This document shows positions 12,645-64,000 of a stretch of DNA of 64,000 nucleotides, piece after piece. This DNA is from Streptomyces sp. SLBN-118 (GTDB taxonomy: Bacteria > Actinomycetota > Actinomycetes > Streptomycetales > Streptomycetaceae): assembly GCF_006715635.1 (NCBI RefSeq), contig NZ_VFNP01000001.1, forward strand, positions 3,658,001-3,722,000. Direction: 5' to 3'. The number at the start of each line of letters is the position of its first letter. Position 1 is the first letter of the stretch. The position numbers and the translations under genes were made by a program. The notes below the pieces were generated by a model. That model ran no database searches, was not told the origin of the DNA, and was given only the letters and a program-made list of their open reading frames with translations.

Positions 12645-12663
12645 TTGAGTCTATTCCACTCAA
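12645..12663. promoter_or_regulatory. HAIR operator for HspR upstream of clpB
   Basis: TTGAGT-N7-ACTCAA, the HspR inverted repeat, 65 bp upstream of the clpB start. Matches the established consensus CTTGAGT-N7-ACTCAAG in all but the outermost bases. Confidence 0.9.
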
Positions 12664-12700: not shown

Positions 12701-13105
12701 ATGGCCATCGATCCGCGCAACCCCGACGCGTCCTTCCTCAGCTTCTGGCGTGAGTACCACATGTCCACACTGACGACACCGCGCCAGGACGGCACCCCTC
12801 ACGTTGTCGCGGTCGGCGTCACGTACGACCCGGAGGGCGGATTCGCCCGCGTCATCACCAATAAGCACAGCCACAAGGTGGCCAACCTCCTGGCCGCGGG
12901 CCCGGAGGGGGCGCCGGTCGCGGTCTGCCAGGTCGACAAGGGGCGCTGGGCGACCCTGGAGGGCCGCGCGAGGGTCCGTGCGGAGCCCGAGCTCATCGCG
13001 GACGCGGTGGAGCGTTACGCGGAACGCTACGGGCGCACACCGGCCCCGAATCCGGACCGGGTGCTGATCGAGATCACCCTGACGCGGGCGATGGGCCGGG
13101 CGTAG
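12701..13105 (+). CDS. PPOX-class (pyridoxamine 5'-phosphate oxidase-fold) protein
   Basis: 134 residues. The split-barrel flavin/F420-binding fold is shown by STLTTPRQDGTPHVVAVGV, NKHSHKVANLL and WATLEGRARV. Actinobacterial relatives of this size bind F420 or FMN and act on unknown substrates. It is divergent from clpB and followed by a strong two-way terminator. Confidence 0.85.
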   Translation: MAIDPRNPDASFLSFWREYHMSTLTTPRQDGTPHVVAVGVTYDPEGGFARVITNKHSHKVANLLAAGPEGAPVAVCQVDKGRWATLEGRARVRAEPELIADAVERYAERYGRTPAPNPDRVLIEITLTRAMGRA

Positions 13106-13145
13106 GGAACACATCCCCGTGCCGGAGCCTTCCGTACGGGAAAAG

Positions 13146-13190
13146 CACAGCGGCGCCATCGCGTTTCAGGTCCACGATGGCGCCGCTGTG
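13146..13190. terminator. Bidirectional terminator
   Basis: Perfect 16-bp stem with a 13-nt loop (arms 13146-13161 and 13175-13190), between convergent genes. Confidence 0.9.
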
Positions 13191-13232
13191 TGGGGGAAGC
13201 ACCTGAGCGATTTACAACGACGGGGGAACCGC

Positions 13233-13553
13233 TCAGGCACTGCGGGGGGTGGCGGTGGTGGTGTCGGGCTCGACCAACTGGTGATCGCGTTGATCGAGAT
13301 TGACGAAAATCATGCCGTACCGGATGGCACAGCGGACGGGCTGCGGAGCTCCACGGGGCCGGCGAAGGCACCGATACGCGCGGACGTCTTCGTCCTCCTC
13401 GCGCGCCACGACGATCGGCTCTCCGAAGAGGGTGACCATCAACGAGTCGCCACGGTGGGGGATTGCCGTGACGAGGTCGATGAAATGCCACCCCGATCGA
13501 TAAGCCGTAGCCATCTCGCGCCGGAAGACCCGGTCGTCCGGTGGAACGGTCAT
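13233..13553 (-). CDS. Rieske-fold-like protein lacking the Fe-S ligands
   Basis: 106 residues. The order of elements follows the N-terminal Rieske domain of ring-hydroxylating oxygenases: YRSGWHFIDL, then GEPIVVAREEDEDVRAYRC, then CAIRYGMIFVNLD. At the positions where a Rieske protein has CxH and CxxH, this one reads CLRRPRGA and CAIRYG, so both histidines are absent and no 2Fe-2S cluster is expected. The start ATG overlaps the stop of the GEPSWG-peptide gene (13550-13553), indicating translational coupling. It may have kept a binding role, for example holding the peptide or a partner enzyme. Assignment by eye; an unrelated beta fold is possible. Confidence 0.55.
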   Translation of the reverse strand: MTVPPDDRVFRREMATAYRSGWHFIDLVTAIPHRGDSLMVTLFGEPIVVAREEDEDVRAYRCLRRPRGAPQPVRCAIRYGMIFVNLDQRDHQLVEPDTTTATPRSA

Positions 13554-13864
13554 GCGTCCGTGCGGGCCGGAGCGACGCCCCAGGAGGGCTCACCTGGCGT
13601 ACCCGCGGCGTCAGCCGGAGCGACACCCCATGAAGGCTCACCGGGAGTGCCCGACGCGTCCGCCGGAGCGGCAACACCCCAGGAGGGCTCACCGGGCGTT
13701 CCGGCCACAGCATCAGTGGGAGCGAAGCCCCACGACGGTTCCCCAGGAGCTGCCGTCACCGCGCCGGCGGGAGAGCTACCCCAGGAGGGCTCACCGGAGG
13801 CCACCGCACCGAGCGCGGCCGCCGCTATGGCAAGAGCACAAAGAGCACGTAGCGTCCTAGACAT
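13550..13864 (-). CDS. Secreted repeat peptide with five GEPSWG motifs
   Basis: 104 residues from the ATG at 13864, with GGTGGAG upstream. A Sec-type signal peptide (MSRTLR, hydrophobic Ala/Leu core, cleavage near AVA-SG at 21-23) is followed at once by five copies of GEPSWG at residues 24-29, 41-46, 58-63, 75-80 and 91-96. The period is 17,17,17,16 residues, with the linker Gly-Thr-Pro before and Val-Ala-Pro-Ala-Asp-Ala after. No cysteine is in the mature part. Tandem identical cores separated by regular linkers are typical of multi-core ribosomal peptide precursors, though a simple cell-wall repeat protein is possible. Coupled by a 4-bp overlap to the Rieske-like gene; divergent from a LuxR-type regulator. 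Confidence 0.8.
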   Translation of the reverse strand: MSRTLRALCALAIAAAALGAVASGEPSWGSSPAGAVTAAPGEPSWGFAPTDAVAGTPGEPSWGVAAPADASGTPGEPSWGVAPADAAGTPGEPSWGVAPARTDA

Positions 13865-13990
13865 GGGTGATCTCCACCTCTTTTGATCATTCCTCCTCCC
13901 CCGCGCATAAGACGATGTCTCACTCCGAACGCTTGCACCAGCGACGGCAGGCATCATGTTCCTGTAATGCAGGAGCCTGAGGGGGTGCAT

Positions 13991-14974
13991 ATGCCATCTA
14001 ATGAGGGCGAAACGGGACACCCTCACGCAGACGGCGAGCTGTGCGAAGCGGGGAAAAGTCTCTACATCACCGCACTGCGCACCGGACGTATAGCCCGGTC
14101 AGAGGCGGAATCAACACCCTGCCTCTTCGATCTCGCCCTGCTGCACCCGGATCCCGACGACGCTCAGTGGCTCCGACCGGTCCCGCCGACCACTGCGCTG
14201 ACACAGCTGATACACCCCATTGAGCGGGAGATCCAAGAGCGCCGACGACGAACTGTCGCTCTGACCGATGCTCTTGAGCCATTCATGGCGTTCACCGCTC
14301 AGAACTCCACCGTCCCACAAGGAATTACCGTCCTCGAGGGCCTCAACCGCATCAACACAACCCTCGACCAAGTCACCGCAGACTGCACCGAGGAGCTTCT
14401 CACGGTCCAGCCCGGCAGCGGGCGACAGCCGCACATCCTCGAAAAGGCCCTGCGCCGCGTGGAACCGCTGATCGACCGCGGTGTCCGTATGCGCACGCTC
14501 TACCAGCACACAGCCCGCCACCACCCCGCCACGCTCGCCTACATGGAGCAGGTGGGGCCCTCCGGCGTGGAGGTGCGCACGCTGGAGGAGATCATCGACC
14601 GGCTGATCATCGTGGACCGGAGGGTGGCCTTCATTCCGGCGAGCAGCGACCGGCTGTCCGCACTGGAGCTGCGGCACAAGGGCATAGTCGAGTATCTGGT
14701 CGGCGTCTTCGAGCAGTTCTGGCTCCACGGCAACCCGTGGGAGGAACCGATCTCGTACGGACCGGACCTCGACGGCATCACCGGCATCCAGCGCTCGATC
14801 GCAAAACTGCTGGTCGAAGGCCATGTGGACGAGGCGATCGCGCGCCGGCTCGGGATGAATGTCCGTACCTGCCGAGCCCATATCGCCAAGCTGGGCTCGT
14901 CGTTGGGCAGCGGCAGCCGGACCCAGCTGGGCTATCTGATCGCCCAGTCGGGAATCCTTGAACACGAGTCCTGA
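13991..14974 (+). CDS. LuxR-type response regulator-like transcriptional activator (TrmB/PLD-like sensor)
   Basis: 327 residues from the ATG at 13991, with GAGGGGG upstream. The C-terminus is a LuxR/GerE-like helix-turn-helix (LLVEGHVDEAIARRLGM, RTCRAHIAKLGSSLG). The middle, GVRMRTLYQHTARHHP to LIIVDRRVAFIPA, has the phospholipase D-like layout seen in TrmB-related regulators. There is no phosphoacceptor receiver domain. It is divergent from the GEPSWG gene pair across 126 bp, so it is the natural candidate to control it. A protein with the same layout is at 62482-63477. Confidence 0.85.
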   Translation: MPSNEGETGHPHADGELCEAGKSLYITALRTGRIARSEAESTPCLFDLALLHPDPDDAQWLRPVPPTTALTQLIHPIEREIQERRRRTVALTDALEPFMAFTAQNSTVPQGITVLEGLNRINTTLDQVTADCTEELLTVQPGSGRQPHILEKALRRVEPLIDRGVRMRTLYQHTARHHPATLAYMEQVGPSGVEVRTLEEIIDRLIIVDRRVAFIPASSDRLSALELRHKGIVEYLVGVFEQFWLHGNPWEEPISYGPDLDGITGIQRSIAKLLVEGHVDEAIARRLGMNVRTCRAHIAKLGSSLGSGSRTQLGYLIAQSGILEHES

Positions 14975-14995
14975 ACCTGACCGAAACCCATATAC

Positions 14996-15039
14996 CGAAG
15001 GGGCGGTGCGGCAACTCGCGTTGCTGCACCGCCCCTTCG
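14996..15039. terminator. Bidirectional terminator
   Basis: 20-bp perfect stem (14996-15015 with 15020-15039) with a TCGC loop between the convergent regulator and hspR. Confidence 0.9.
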
Positions 15040-15053
15040 GGCCGAGACATGGC

Positions 15054-15497
15054 CTATTCGGAACGCTTGGGCCGCCAGACCACCAGCGCGCTCGCCTGCT
15101 GCACATCCTGGTACGGCACGAGATCGCGCCGGTAGGAGGCATGCACCTGAGCCTCGCGCTGCTGCATCGCCACAGCCGCTCCCTCGACCGCGGCCGACAG
15201 CTCGGCAACCCTTTGCTGAAGCGCAGCGACCTGGTTCTCCAGTTCGATGATGCGCTTGATTCCGGCCAGGTTGATGCCCTCGTCCTGCGACAACTGCTGG
15301 ACGGTGCGCAGCAGTTCGATGTCCCGGGCACTGTAGCGTCGGCCCCGTCCGGCGGTGCGGCCGGGGGAGACAAGACCGAGCCGGTCGTACTGCCGCAGCG
15401 TCTGCGGATGCAATCCCGAGAGCTGGGCCGCCACCGAAATGACGTACACCGGCGACTCGTCGGTCAGTTCGTAGGGGTTGCGGCGACGACCGTCCAT
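15054..15497 (-). CDS. hspR: Heat-shock repressor HspR (MerR family)
   Basis: 147 residues from the ATG at 15497, one base after the dnaJ stop. MerR-type DNA-binding domain (YVISVAAQLSGLHPQTLRQYDRLGL, GRRYSARDIELLR), then a coiled-coil dimer helix (IIELENQVAALQQRVAEL). HspR binds HAIR repeats with DnaK as co-repressor and represses the dnaK operon and clpB. It is the last gene of the operon it controls. Confidence 0.95.
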   Translation of the reverse strand: MDGRRRNPYELTDESPVYVISVAAQLSGLHPQTLRQYDRLGLVSPGRTAGRGRRYSARDIELLRTVQQLSQDEGINLAGIKRIIELENQVAALQQRVAELSAAVEGAAVAMQQREAQVHASYRRDLVPYQDVQQASALVVWRPKRSE

Positions 15498-62481: not shown

Positions 62482-63477
62482 TCAGATCCAGCCGCGTTCG
62501 CGGGCCACGAGGGCGGCGTGCGGGCGGCTCGATGCGCCGAGAAGCCTCAGCAGTTCGGCGACATGCCGCCGATAGGTCCGTATCGAGATTCCCAGGGCCC
62601 GTGCACCGATCTCGTCCTTGTGGCCCTGGCACATCCACTGCAGCACACGCCGTTCGATGTCTCCGGGACCGGGCCCGTCGTCGGCGCCGGCCTGGCCGTC
62701 GACGCTGCCGGAAAGGTCCTCGGCCTGGTCCCAGATCTTCTCGAAGAGGGCCACGATGCTGGCGACCAGGCCTTCCTCATGGGCCAGCAGGGCGCCTCTG
62801 GTGGTGTCGGCGGGGTCCCTGGGCACCAGGGCTGCACGCCGGTCGTAGACAAGGATGCGCTCCGAGACATCCTCCGCCACCCGTATCACGGCGCCCTGCG
62901 CCGCCAACTCGCGCAGATAGTCCAGGGTCGGCGGGTGTTCGAGCGCCTCCTTGCGGACAACGCTGCGCATGCGCACGCCACGGCGCAGACAGCGCTGGTC
63001 GAGCCGGCGGGCGCGGGAGATGTTCTCGGGCGTGAGGGCCGTGTGGGGCTCGACGGAGAGGATCTCCTCCCGCGCGAAGAACGCCAGGTCGTCGATCCTG
63101 TTACGGATCTGCGGCAGGCTCTGCAGCCGCTCCACTCCATGCGGTGCGACGGCCTTCGGCCCCTGCTCGGTGCGGAGTTCGGAGACCAGGTGACGGGACC
63201 GGATGACGTGTTCGAACTCCTTGTGCAGCTCGCGCAGGCGCAGTTCGGTGAGGCGATCGACCGCGGTCTCGGGACTCACGGCCGACAGCAGATTGGATTC
63301 GGTACGGCTCAGTACTCCGACCGCGCACAGCCGGTTGACCGACTCGCGGGCCTGGTGCGGGGATATCTCCAGAAGCAGGTGGATGTCGTCGTCGGAGGTT
63401 CCCGGATTCCGCAAGAAGTGTCGATAAATCGCCTCTTCCGTTTGTGACAGCCCAAAAACAGCCATGCTTGTGCTCAC
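62482..63477 (-). CDS. LuxR-type regulator with TrmB-like N-terminus
   Basis: 331 residues from the GTG at 63477, with GGGAAG upstream; an ATG at 63465 is alternative. An N-terminal winged helix (TEEAIYRHFLRNPGTSDDDI), a middle PLD-like region (RGVRMRSVVRKEALEHP to ILVYDRRAALVPRD) and a C-terminal LuxR/GerE helix-turn-helix (RRVLQWMCQGHKDEIGARALGIS). The same layout as the 13991 regulator. Faces the end of the SDP-like operon, so likely its controller. Confidence 0.85.
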   Translation of the reverse strand: MSTSMAVFGLSQTEEAIYRHFLRNPGTSDDDIHLLLEISPHQARESVNRLCAVGVLSRTESNLLSAVSPETAVDRLTELRLRELHKEFEHVIRSRHLVSELRTEQGPKAVAPHGVERLQSLPQIRNRIDDLAFFAREEILSVEPHTALTPENISRARRLDQRCLRRGVRMRSVVRKEALEHPPTLDYLRELAAQGAVIRVAEDVSERILVYDRRAALVPRDPADTTRGALLAHEEGLVASIVALFEKIWDQAEDLSGSVDGQAGADDGPGPGDIERRVLQWMCQGHKDEIGARALGISIRTYRRHVAELLRLLGASSRPHAALVARERGWI

Positions 63478-63616
63478 TGAGTCTTCCCCCTGGAACAATG
63501 TGGCGGCTCGCTCGCCGTGCTCGCTGGTCAGGCGGGCGCGGCCCGCTGCGGGTCGCTGTTCGATCCGCGAGTCTAATCGCGCACGGGGCACGTGCAGGCA
63601 CAGCATGAGGTAAATC

Positions 63617-64000
63617 ATGATCATGCCCCTGCTCGTCGGAACCTCGGGATGGCAGTACAAGGACTGGCGCGGCGTTCTGTATCCCTCCAAGCAACCCCAG
63701 CGGCTGTGGCTGGAGGAGTACGCCGGACAGTTCGCCACCGTGGAGAACAACAACGCCTTCTACCGGCTTCCCACGACGGACAACTTCGCCTCCTGGCGGG
63801 AACGGACGCCCGAAGGGTTCGTCATGGCGGTCAAGGCCAGCCGCTATCTGACCCATCTGAAGCGGCTGCACGACCCCGAGGAGCCCGTACGCCGGCTCAT
63901 GGACCGCGCCGAGGGCCTCGGCGACCGGCTCGGGCCCGTCCTGCTTCAACTGCCCCCCAACTTCCGGGAGGACATCGCGGCTCTGGACGCCTGCCTCGGC
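63617..64000 (+). CDS. DUF72/YecE-family protein, runs off the window
   Basis: First 128 codons (MIMPLLVGTSGWQYKDW, RLWLEEYAGQFATVENNNAFYRLP, VLLQLPPNF). TIM-barrel family of unknown function, common in actinobacteria. ATG at 63617 has GAGGTAA six bases upstream; a later ATG at 63623 is possible. Shares the divergent region 63478-63616 with the regulator. Confidence 0.9.
   Translation, partial: MIMPLLVGTSGWQYKDWRGVLYPSKQPQRLWLEEYAGQFATVENNNAFYRLPTTDNFASWRERTPEGFVMAVKASRYLTHLKRLHDPEEPVRRLMDRAEGLGDRLGPVLLQLPPNFREDIAALDACLG

Follow-up and report, generated by a model that had tools for sequence, protein, structure and literature searches.

How does a Streptomyces cell use a small, apparently exported protein built of short identical repeats, and which of the genes packed around it deals with those repeats? 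The question is raised by the window analysed here, a stretch of 64,000 nucleotides from Streptomyces sp. SLBN-118 (contig NZ_VFNP01000001.1), where we find in order clpB, an F420-type PPOX gene, a Rieske-like gene, the gene of the repeat protein, a divergent LuxR-type regulator and then hspR-dnaJ-grpE-dnaK. The repeat protein gene (13550..13864 on the minus strand, stop codon included, with its ATG at 13864) encodes 104 residues of exported type, with a signal-like N-terminus followed by five copies of the core GEPSWG, which start at residues 24, 41, 58, 75 and 91, at spacings of 17, 17, 17 and 16. These cores correspond to residues 24-29 (13778..13795), 41-46 (13727..13744), 58-63 (13676..13693), 75-80 (13625..13642) and 91-96 (13577..13594), all on the minus strand. 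The stop of this gene overlaps, through an ATGA, the start of the gene for a cluster-less Rieske-like protein of 106 residues (13233..13553, minus strand), and on the other side a receptor-regulator of 327 residues, with a TrmB/phospholipase-D-like sensor domain and a LuxR-type (GerE) helix-turn-helix, is divergently encoded at 13991..14974 (plus strand). The initial annotation had described the near-periodic product, the overlap and the divergent regulator, all of which were confirmed, and had taken the repeats for the cores of a ribosomally made peptide, released or modified at Trp/Ser and bound by the Rieske-like protein. Its repeats, their linkage and the ligand-less Rieske fold stood up to comparison; core binding by the Rieske-like protein and Trp/Ser modification gained no support from it. 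An F420-dependent PPOX-class oxidoreductase, with a TIGR03618 match just above the cut-off, is encoded between clpB and the cassette (12701-13105, plus strand), and upstream of clpB there is an inverted repeat, TTGAGT-N7-ACTCAA (12645-12663), which fits the HspR-binding HAIR motif. Both an Rfam search of positions 13000-15100 and a plasmid search returned zero matches.

Linkage, spread and variation of the cassette

All loci compared here were retrieved through the Rieske-like gene. Among them, a [DE]xxW protein adjoins the Rieske-like gene and the divergent regulator in 99 of the 99 parsed loci of a first set, and the motif is found in 76 of the 80 loci of a second set of named records, with a variant in the other four; the repeats thus proved to be real, conserved and discrete cores across related loci, with the Rieske-like gene conserved beside them. 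Within the genus, the Rieske-like protein was matched in 254 of 295 genomes at E <= 1e-3, with 243 matches better than 1e-50 and eleven weak ones. Four of the eleven weak-match genomes (G047, G050, G105 and G184) carry the regulator, in three or four tandem copies, and at E <= 1e-70 the regulator is absent from the other seven (0/7) and from the Rieske-less genomes examined (0/20, out of 41 without a Rieske-like match). Receptor and Rieske-like gene are jointly absent in the genomes tested, and a candidate peptide gene and candidate receptor occur in about five sixths of the species sampled. A class-wide scan for the Rieske-like protein at E <= 1e-10 covered 296 genomes from 114 genera; the 23 genomes that matched belong to a single genus, that of the window, so that there were no relatives outside the genus to use. 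The Rieske-like genes of S. violaceoruber and of a record named Kitasatospora aureofaciens NRRL B-2183 (L177) are 98% identical, and the name of the latter may be wrong.

In related Streptomyces loci the core is nearly always [D/E]-x-x-W, present in 1-10 copies and usually in one version per protein (a single version is used by 126 of the 135 proteins having more than one motif). Exceptions across the 100 fetched (99 parsed) and 80 named-record loci are NxxW in three loci and ITEW in one. The core differs between species, with 31 versions among 173 loci; thirty loci, the window's included, already contain GEPSWG, GEPSWE, GEPTWE, GDIGWD, DSGWD, DVGWG, DLGWD, DTGWG, GDIAWN, DPGWH and others. The Rieske-like protein of S. 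venezuelae, SVEN_3427, matches the one encoded in L027, a locus with GEPSWE cores. The 173 receptor/core pairs come from 98 of the 100 loci of the first fetched set (window's own included) and 75 of the 80 named-record loci, and they amount to 98 effective sequences at 90% identity, some species occurring in both sets. Left out were L055, whose Rieske motif was unmatched by the pattern, L126, whose regulator match covers about half of the query, L213, L214, L218 and L220, which are without [DE]xxW, and L254, with a weak receptor match; the cores of L054, L066, L101 and L146 were assigned by hand.

When the window is compared with locus L076, the proteins differ by 38% for the receptor, 1% for the Rieske-like protein, 4% for DnaJ and 5.5% for HspR. 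Nucleotide identity is about 0.85-0.9 in the hspR/dnaJ part, 0.91 in the Rieske-like gene and 0.72-0.87 on the PPOX side, and it drops to about 0.6-0.7 over most of the receptor and to 0.3 over part of the peptide region. Core and receptor are hypervariable between conserved flanks, an arrangement that resembles pherotype loci, and either swapping or fast divergence would fit such a hypervariable cassette.

Receptor residues that track the core

Both sequence profile and structure model describe the regulator as TrmB/TrmBL2-like, with a phospholipase-D-like (PLD) effector domain behind a winged-helix-like N-terminus and a GerE helix-turn-helix (NarL-type HTH), the closest solved relatives of the sensor part including 5box and 2f5t. 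Its matches to TrmBL2/PLD and NarL-type HTH place it outside the TPR-repeat receptor class of the RRNPP systems, and an autoinducer-binding domain had no Pfam match in the window regulator nor among the 15 families matched by 74 sequences. Over the 173 pairs, core position 2 is tracked most closely by receptor columns 136 and 157, both with a normalised mutual information of 0.63, the next column reaching 0.37. In the window these residues are Leu136 (14396..14398) and Val157 (14459..14461, both on the plus strand), which jointly track a Pro. Receptors with Met136/Asp157 have Ser at core position 2 in 65 of 65 cases, those with Val136/Asp157 have Thr in 41 of 41, Val136/Ser157 goes with Val in 10 of 10, and Leu136 accompanied by Val, Met or Leu157 goes with Pro in 29 of 29. 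Val136/Gly157 receptors go with Ile (18), Leu (8) or Val (1), hence with Ile or Leu in 26 of 27, the Val core residue of L105 being a miss of the code within the 173; the one Ala136/Ala157 receptor (n=1) has Leu. Asp157 is lost where core position 2 is aliphatic or Pro. The code is chemically sensible: Asp157 accompanies a hydroxyl side chain, and of the two hydroxyl residues Met136 occurs with Ser, the smaller, and Val136 with Thr, the larger.

Core position 3 is tracked by residues 145 and 153 (Arg145, 14423..14425, and Ala153, 14447..14449, plus strand, in the window), with a best normalised mutual information of 0.29 for the regulator. Ser145 goes with Lys/Arg in 7 of 7 cases and Phe/Tyr145 with His in 5 of 5, whereas Gly153 is found with bulky residues (Val, Thr, Ile or His in 67 of 72) and Ala/Ser153 with small ones (Gly or Ala in 52 of 54). 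This second code is looser, Ser at position 3 occurring 18 times with Gly153 and 22 times with Ala153. Residues 149, 153 and 157 are one turn apart on a single predicted helix (147-162), so that neighbouring core residues could lie along it. A code for core position 1 (D or E) was also considered and rejected, as it follows clade only.

Because these same 173 pairs served to choose the pocket columns, prediction with close relatives excluded is no blind test of them. When receptors at least 75% identical are excluded, columns 136 and 157 predict position 2 in 86% of cases against 59% from the nearest whole receptor and 21% from 60 random column pairs (best 61%), and five pocket columns predict position 3 in 57% against 20% from the nearest receptor and 20% at random (best 35%). 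A receptor tree was obtained by a quick method from the alignment with columns 130-165 and 175-215 removed. On it, core position 2 shows 21 changes and the 136/157 state likewise 21, the mean of 100 permutations being 94.5 and their minimum 86; for the 120 columns having 6-25 changes, 0.37 is the highest value outside 136 and 157. Column 136 splits Ser from Thr at position 2 in 106 of 106 cases, the next best column in 85 of 106. There are 13 independent Ser/Thr pairs on the best tree and 5 on well-supported branches, where 5 of 5 agree (sign test p 0.06). Moreover, in the seven listed close receptor pairs differing at position 2, all of them Ser/Thr, the Met136/Val136 change is always present. 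The Pro class corresponds to a single change on the receptor tree.

Beyond the 173 pairs, the code held in 10 of 11 further loci with a clear core, namely those with DPAWD (L307, L309), DPTWG (L308, L310), DLGWN (L311), DTIWS (L277), NSSWP (L213, L218), NTGWP (L220) and DLGWD (L254). These ten matches are not independent, since L307 is similar to L309 and L308 to L310, and the DTIWS core of L277 is also that of L185 among the 173. The miss is L312, with a Val/Ser receptor and an Ile core (DIAW/DISW); L214 combines a degenerate core, ITEWP, with a Leu/Asp receptor, a pair outside the code's coverage. In paralogous systems the code held in 6 of 7, DTGW peptides going with Ile/Asp (four) or Val/Asp (two), so that Ile replaces Val136 in four of the six matches, and the miss is L038, where a DPNW peptide accompanies a Val/Asp receptor. 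Identity to the window's regulator, where measured, is 35-38% for the paralogous ones of L036, L148 and L150, and 30% for that of L038. Altogether, the covariation of the sequences points to the divergent regulator, and not to the Rieske-like protein, as the partner that tracks the core, and we hold it highly probable that the regulator recognises it; the gene treated as incidental by the initial annotation is the one co-varying with the repeats.

The window's genome also contains an exported-type peptide with DTGWG twice (L278, 2529-2675, minus strand) and another with DPNWD twice (L279, 2275-2484, minus strand), in both cases with a related regulator encoded divergently. The window itself has a second gene for a regulator of this broad family (62482-63753, minus strand; 29% identical over the matched part), and no DxxW peptide was found within 1.5 kb of it. 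Within that same distance, just 5 of 29 paralogue loci of other genomes proved to have a DxxW peptide, as did 2 of the 9 in the window's genome, so that the ligand of most regulators in the wider family may be a different one.

A proposed route from pro-peptide to signal

The reading that we consider likely for the whole cassette is a pherotype-like signalling system, where an exported pro-peptide would give a released [D/E]xxW peptide sensed by a cytoplasmic regulator. Beyond the gene linkage, core diversity, receptor residue code and hypervariable core and receptor computed above, we infer a series of steps comprising secretion, proteolytic release, re-import, direct binding, a DNA target and an output. 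The product of the small gene would be exported as a pro-peptide and cut to free short [D/E]-x-x-W(-x) peptides (here EPSWG or GEPSWG), which would re-enter the cell, probably through a general oligopeptide permease. The peptide would then bind the TrmB/phospholipase-D-like domain of the divergent LuxR-type regulator, with core residue 2 sitting against receptor residues 136 and 157 and core residue 3 against 145, 149 and 153. In turn, the regulator would control target genes and, probably, the divergent promoter pair through a conserved inverted repeat. As happens with pherotypes, core and receptor would have evolved in step, giving many species-specific forms, and the Rieske-like protein would be a conserved accessory that does not read the variable core.

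Regarding the release of the peptide, the core was counted in 177 proteins (from 179, with L146 and L214 left out), 132 of which have at least two copies and 45 a single one. It lies at the very C-terminus in 58 of them and straight after an AxA/VxA stretch, which suits signal peptidase, in 36. Taken with the single-core members, the C-terminal cores and this signal-peptidase-like context suggest that what is released is the core, which probably acts as a released signal. The same counts bear on an alternative in which the repeat protein stays uncleaved, either membrane-anchored or intracellular, and sequesters the regulator as a multivalent ligand by means of its DxxW cores, an anti-activator with no extracellular signal. 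Since it needs no more than a contact between core and receptor, this alternative accounts for the residue code just as well, a higher avidity would follow from the repeated cores, and the locus showed no exporter, protease or importer dedicated to the peptide, just as the initial annotation had remarked for an adjacent protease or transporter. What makes this alternative unlikely is the signal-like N-terminus seen by eye in those relatives inspected, together with the C-terminal and AxA/VxA-preceded cores expected for release, the proteins with one core and a species-specific diversification that suits a signal shared between cells.

A multi-core RiPP, with cores modified at Trp/Ser, the Rieske-like protein bound to the precursor and the PPOX protein or a remote enzyme as the modifier, would account for the tandem cores with linkers of many relatives, for the invariant Trp and for a conserved small partner gene that overlaps the precursor gene, and a PPOX-class oxidoreductase does neighbour the cassette in 94 of the 99 parsed loci. 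The Rieske fold of the partner was borne out by profile and model comparison (model pLDDT 74), and so was the lack of its CxH and CxxH cluster ligands, with Arg64 and Pro66 replacing Cys and His and the second ligand stretch skipped in the alignment. Binding of the core by this protein found no support, as the normalised mutual information of its columns peaks at 0.26 with position 2, where the regulator reaches 0.63, and at 0.09 with position 3, where the regulator reaches 0.29. Neither did modification at Trp/Ser, the one conserved neighbouring enzyme being the F420-type PPOX oxidoreductase, whose gene is convergent on the other strand and has no room between the Rieske-like gene and clpB in L177 and L180; moreover, the window's genome has one Rieske-like match against three DxxW/regulator pairs. 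With a ligand-less protein that does not track the core, and with single-core members for which multi-core logic is not required, the RiPP was rejected as the main explanation, and we regard it as quite improbable, its odds having been raised slightly on account of the conserved PPOX neighbour. A secreted structural or antimicrobial repeat protein, with the regulator merely riding along and the correlation due to the shared ancestry of linked genes, is very improbable. Core and receptor are adjacent and inherited together, and core versions need 34 changes on a receptor tree that included the pocket columns against 47 on the Rieske-like plus PPOX tree (93 loci), as linkage alone would give, yet linkage predicts a diffuse correlation whereas two columns lie far above all others, with a signal that holds when close relatives are excluded, recurs in paralogues at about 35-38% identity where measured and fits side-chain chemistry.

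Coming back to the signalling cassette, our guess is that the Rieske-like protein plays an accessory part, either at the receptor or in processing; the PPOX gene could be either unrelated to the cassette or another accessory. The C-terminal ATPRSA tail of the Rieske-like protein (13236-13253, minus strand) is near-invariant, the preceding stretch varying in length and sequence, and it may be a docking or degradation tag. As a candidate operator, a conserved inverted repeat TCCTG-N5-CAGGA is present in the divergent intergenic region (13954..13980, no strand). With a simple pattern, TCCTG-N5/6-CAGGA was found between the peptide and receptor genes in 145 of 179 loci, with N6 in most relatives, and the repeat is visible in most of the aligned rows inspected; it may be the binding site of the regulator. 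A strict inverted-repeat pattern gave 6 sites in the genome versus 5 in a reversed control, without enrichment, and we therefore assign no regulon. With a different gap and two mismatches allowed, a related pattern had 2 matches in the window (3.1 expected), neither of them at the site, whose gap is five bases.

Comparison with known systems and possible output

In Phr/Rap, PapR/PlcR and other RRNPP systems of the Firmicutes, the gene of an exported pro-peptide lies beside that of a cytoplasmic receptor, the signal is linear and very short, and the pairs are species-specific. The Streptomyces cassette is alike in that a small exported pro-peptide gene (export judged by eye) adjoins a receptor-regulator gene, and its signal would likewise be very short and linear, in species-specific peptide-receptor pairs. 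The RRNPP receptor, however, is a TPR protein, whereas the Streptomyces one joins a TrmB/PLD-like domain to a LuxR helix-turn-helix, and the Streptomyces core is [D/E]xxW, often in tandem copies. A cassette that would work like RRNPP systems with another type of receptor is not filed under them. The agr/ComX pherotype loci are hypervariable signal-receptor cassettes between conserved flanking genes, as is the one described here, which differs in having no recognised processing enzyme or sensor kinase and in its linear tetra- or pentapeptide core. With LuxR solos and AHL receptors the regulator shares the C-terminal GerE helix-turn-helix, but its sensor is TrmB/PLD-like and their autoinducer-binding domain has no Pfam match in it. 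As for archaeal TrmB/TrmBL2, structures 5box and 2f5t are among the closest relatives of the sensor part, although 2f5t is titled a sugar-binding domain, whereas the Streptomyces ligand would be a peptide and a GerE domain is added. The best reading is that of a pherotype-like system outside the RRNPP, agr and AHL families.

The best known Streptomyces signals are small molecules. Peptide signals have been suspected too, as in the case of BldK, which, according to passages of PMC9640686, imports a 655-Da peptide in S. coelicolor, in a kind of signalling where the peptide may differ between strains. The core-sized peptides computed here, of about 517-728 Da, would also be Streptomyces peptide signals, and none of them has a mass matching 655; the passages of PMC9640686 on the 655-Da peptide do not name it. 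The listings and abstract openings searched, from a library short of preprints and most subscription journals, contained no account of a peptide signalling system like this one. Tentatively, one could go further and conceive a genus-wide pherotype system, in which the exported pro-peptides of most Streptomyces species would yield [D/E]xxW(x) signals, and PLD-domain LuxR regulators, as a new receptor class, would read them through a simple residue-to-residue code, with cassettes diversifying or swapping to separate species, extra tandem receptors listening to other species and an output that restrains antibiotic production. The long-sought peptides that BldK-type permeases import may be among such signals, though we would not give this extended picture even chances. 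The specificity code is explicit enough for a test with one substitution and a synthetic peptide.

A possible output comes from the S. coelicolor group, where the order (L180, S. tendae) is hspR, a lipoprotein-like gene, LuxR C, LuxR B, LuxR A, peptide, Rieske-like gene and clpB, an order that L277 shows from hspR to the Rieske-like gene. We take clpB to be SCO3661 and hspR to be SCO3668. In the part of PMC3282765 that lists them, SCO3665 has 327 residues and SCO3666 has 394, sizes that fit LuxR B (327 residues in L180) and LuxR C (a 397-codon frame in L277), respectively. SCO3664 is thus probably LuxR A, the receptor, a mapping that we infer. In the portion of PMC6585502 dealing with it, a transposon insertion in SCO3664, called a regulator, is among the mutants with a >50-fold increased actinorhodin, and 12 of 16 regulator mutants were complemented, a count given for the whole set rather than for SCO3664. 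Such insertion data, as excerpted, suggest that SCO3664, probably this receptor, restrains antibiotic production. Should the output indeed be antibiotic production, silent gene clusters could be awakened by supplying a defined short peptide or by blocking it.

Three regulators each are found in L177, L179, L180 and L277, all of the S. coelicolor group, whose regulators B and C carry the pairs Leu/Asp and Val/Ala, with no matching local peptide seen. On the other hand, L307, L308, L309 and L310 have three or four tandem receptor genes beside one peptide, plus a divergent Rieske-like protein, and some of these extra receptors carry other 136/157 pairs (e.g., Phe/Val), possibly for other peptides.
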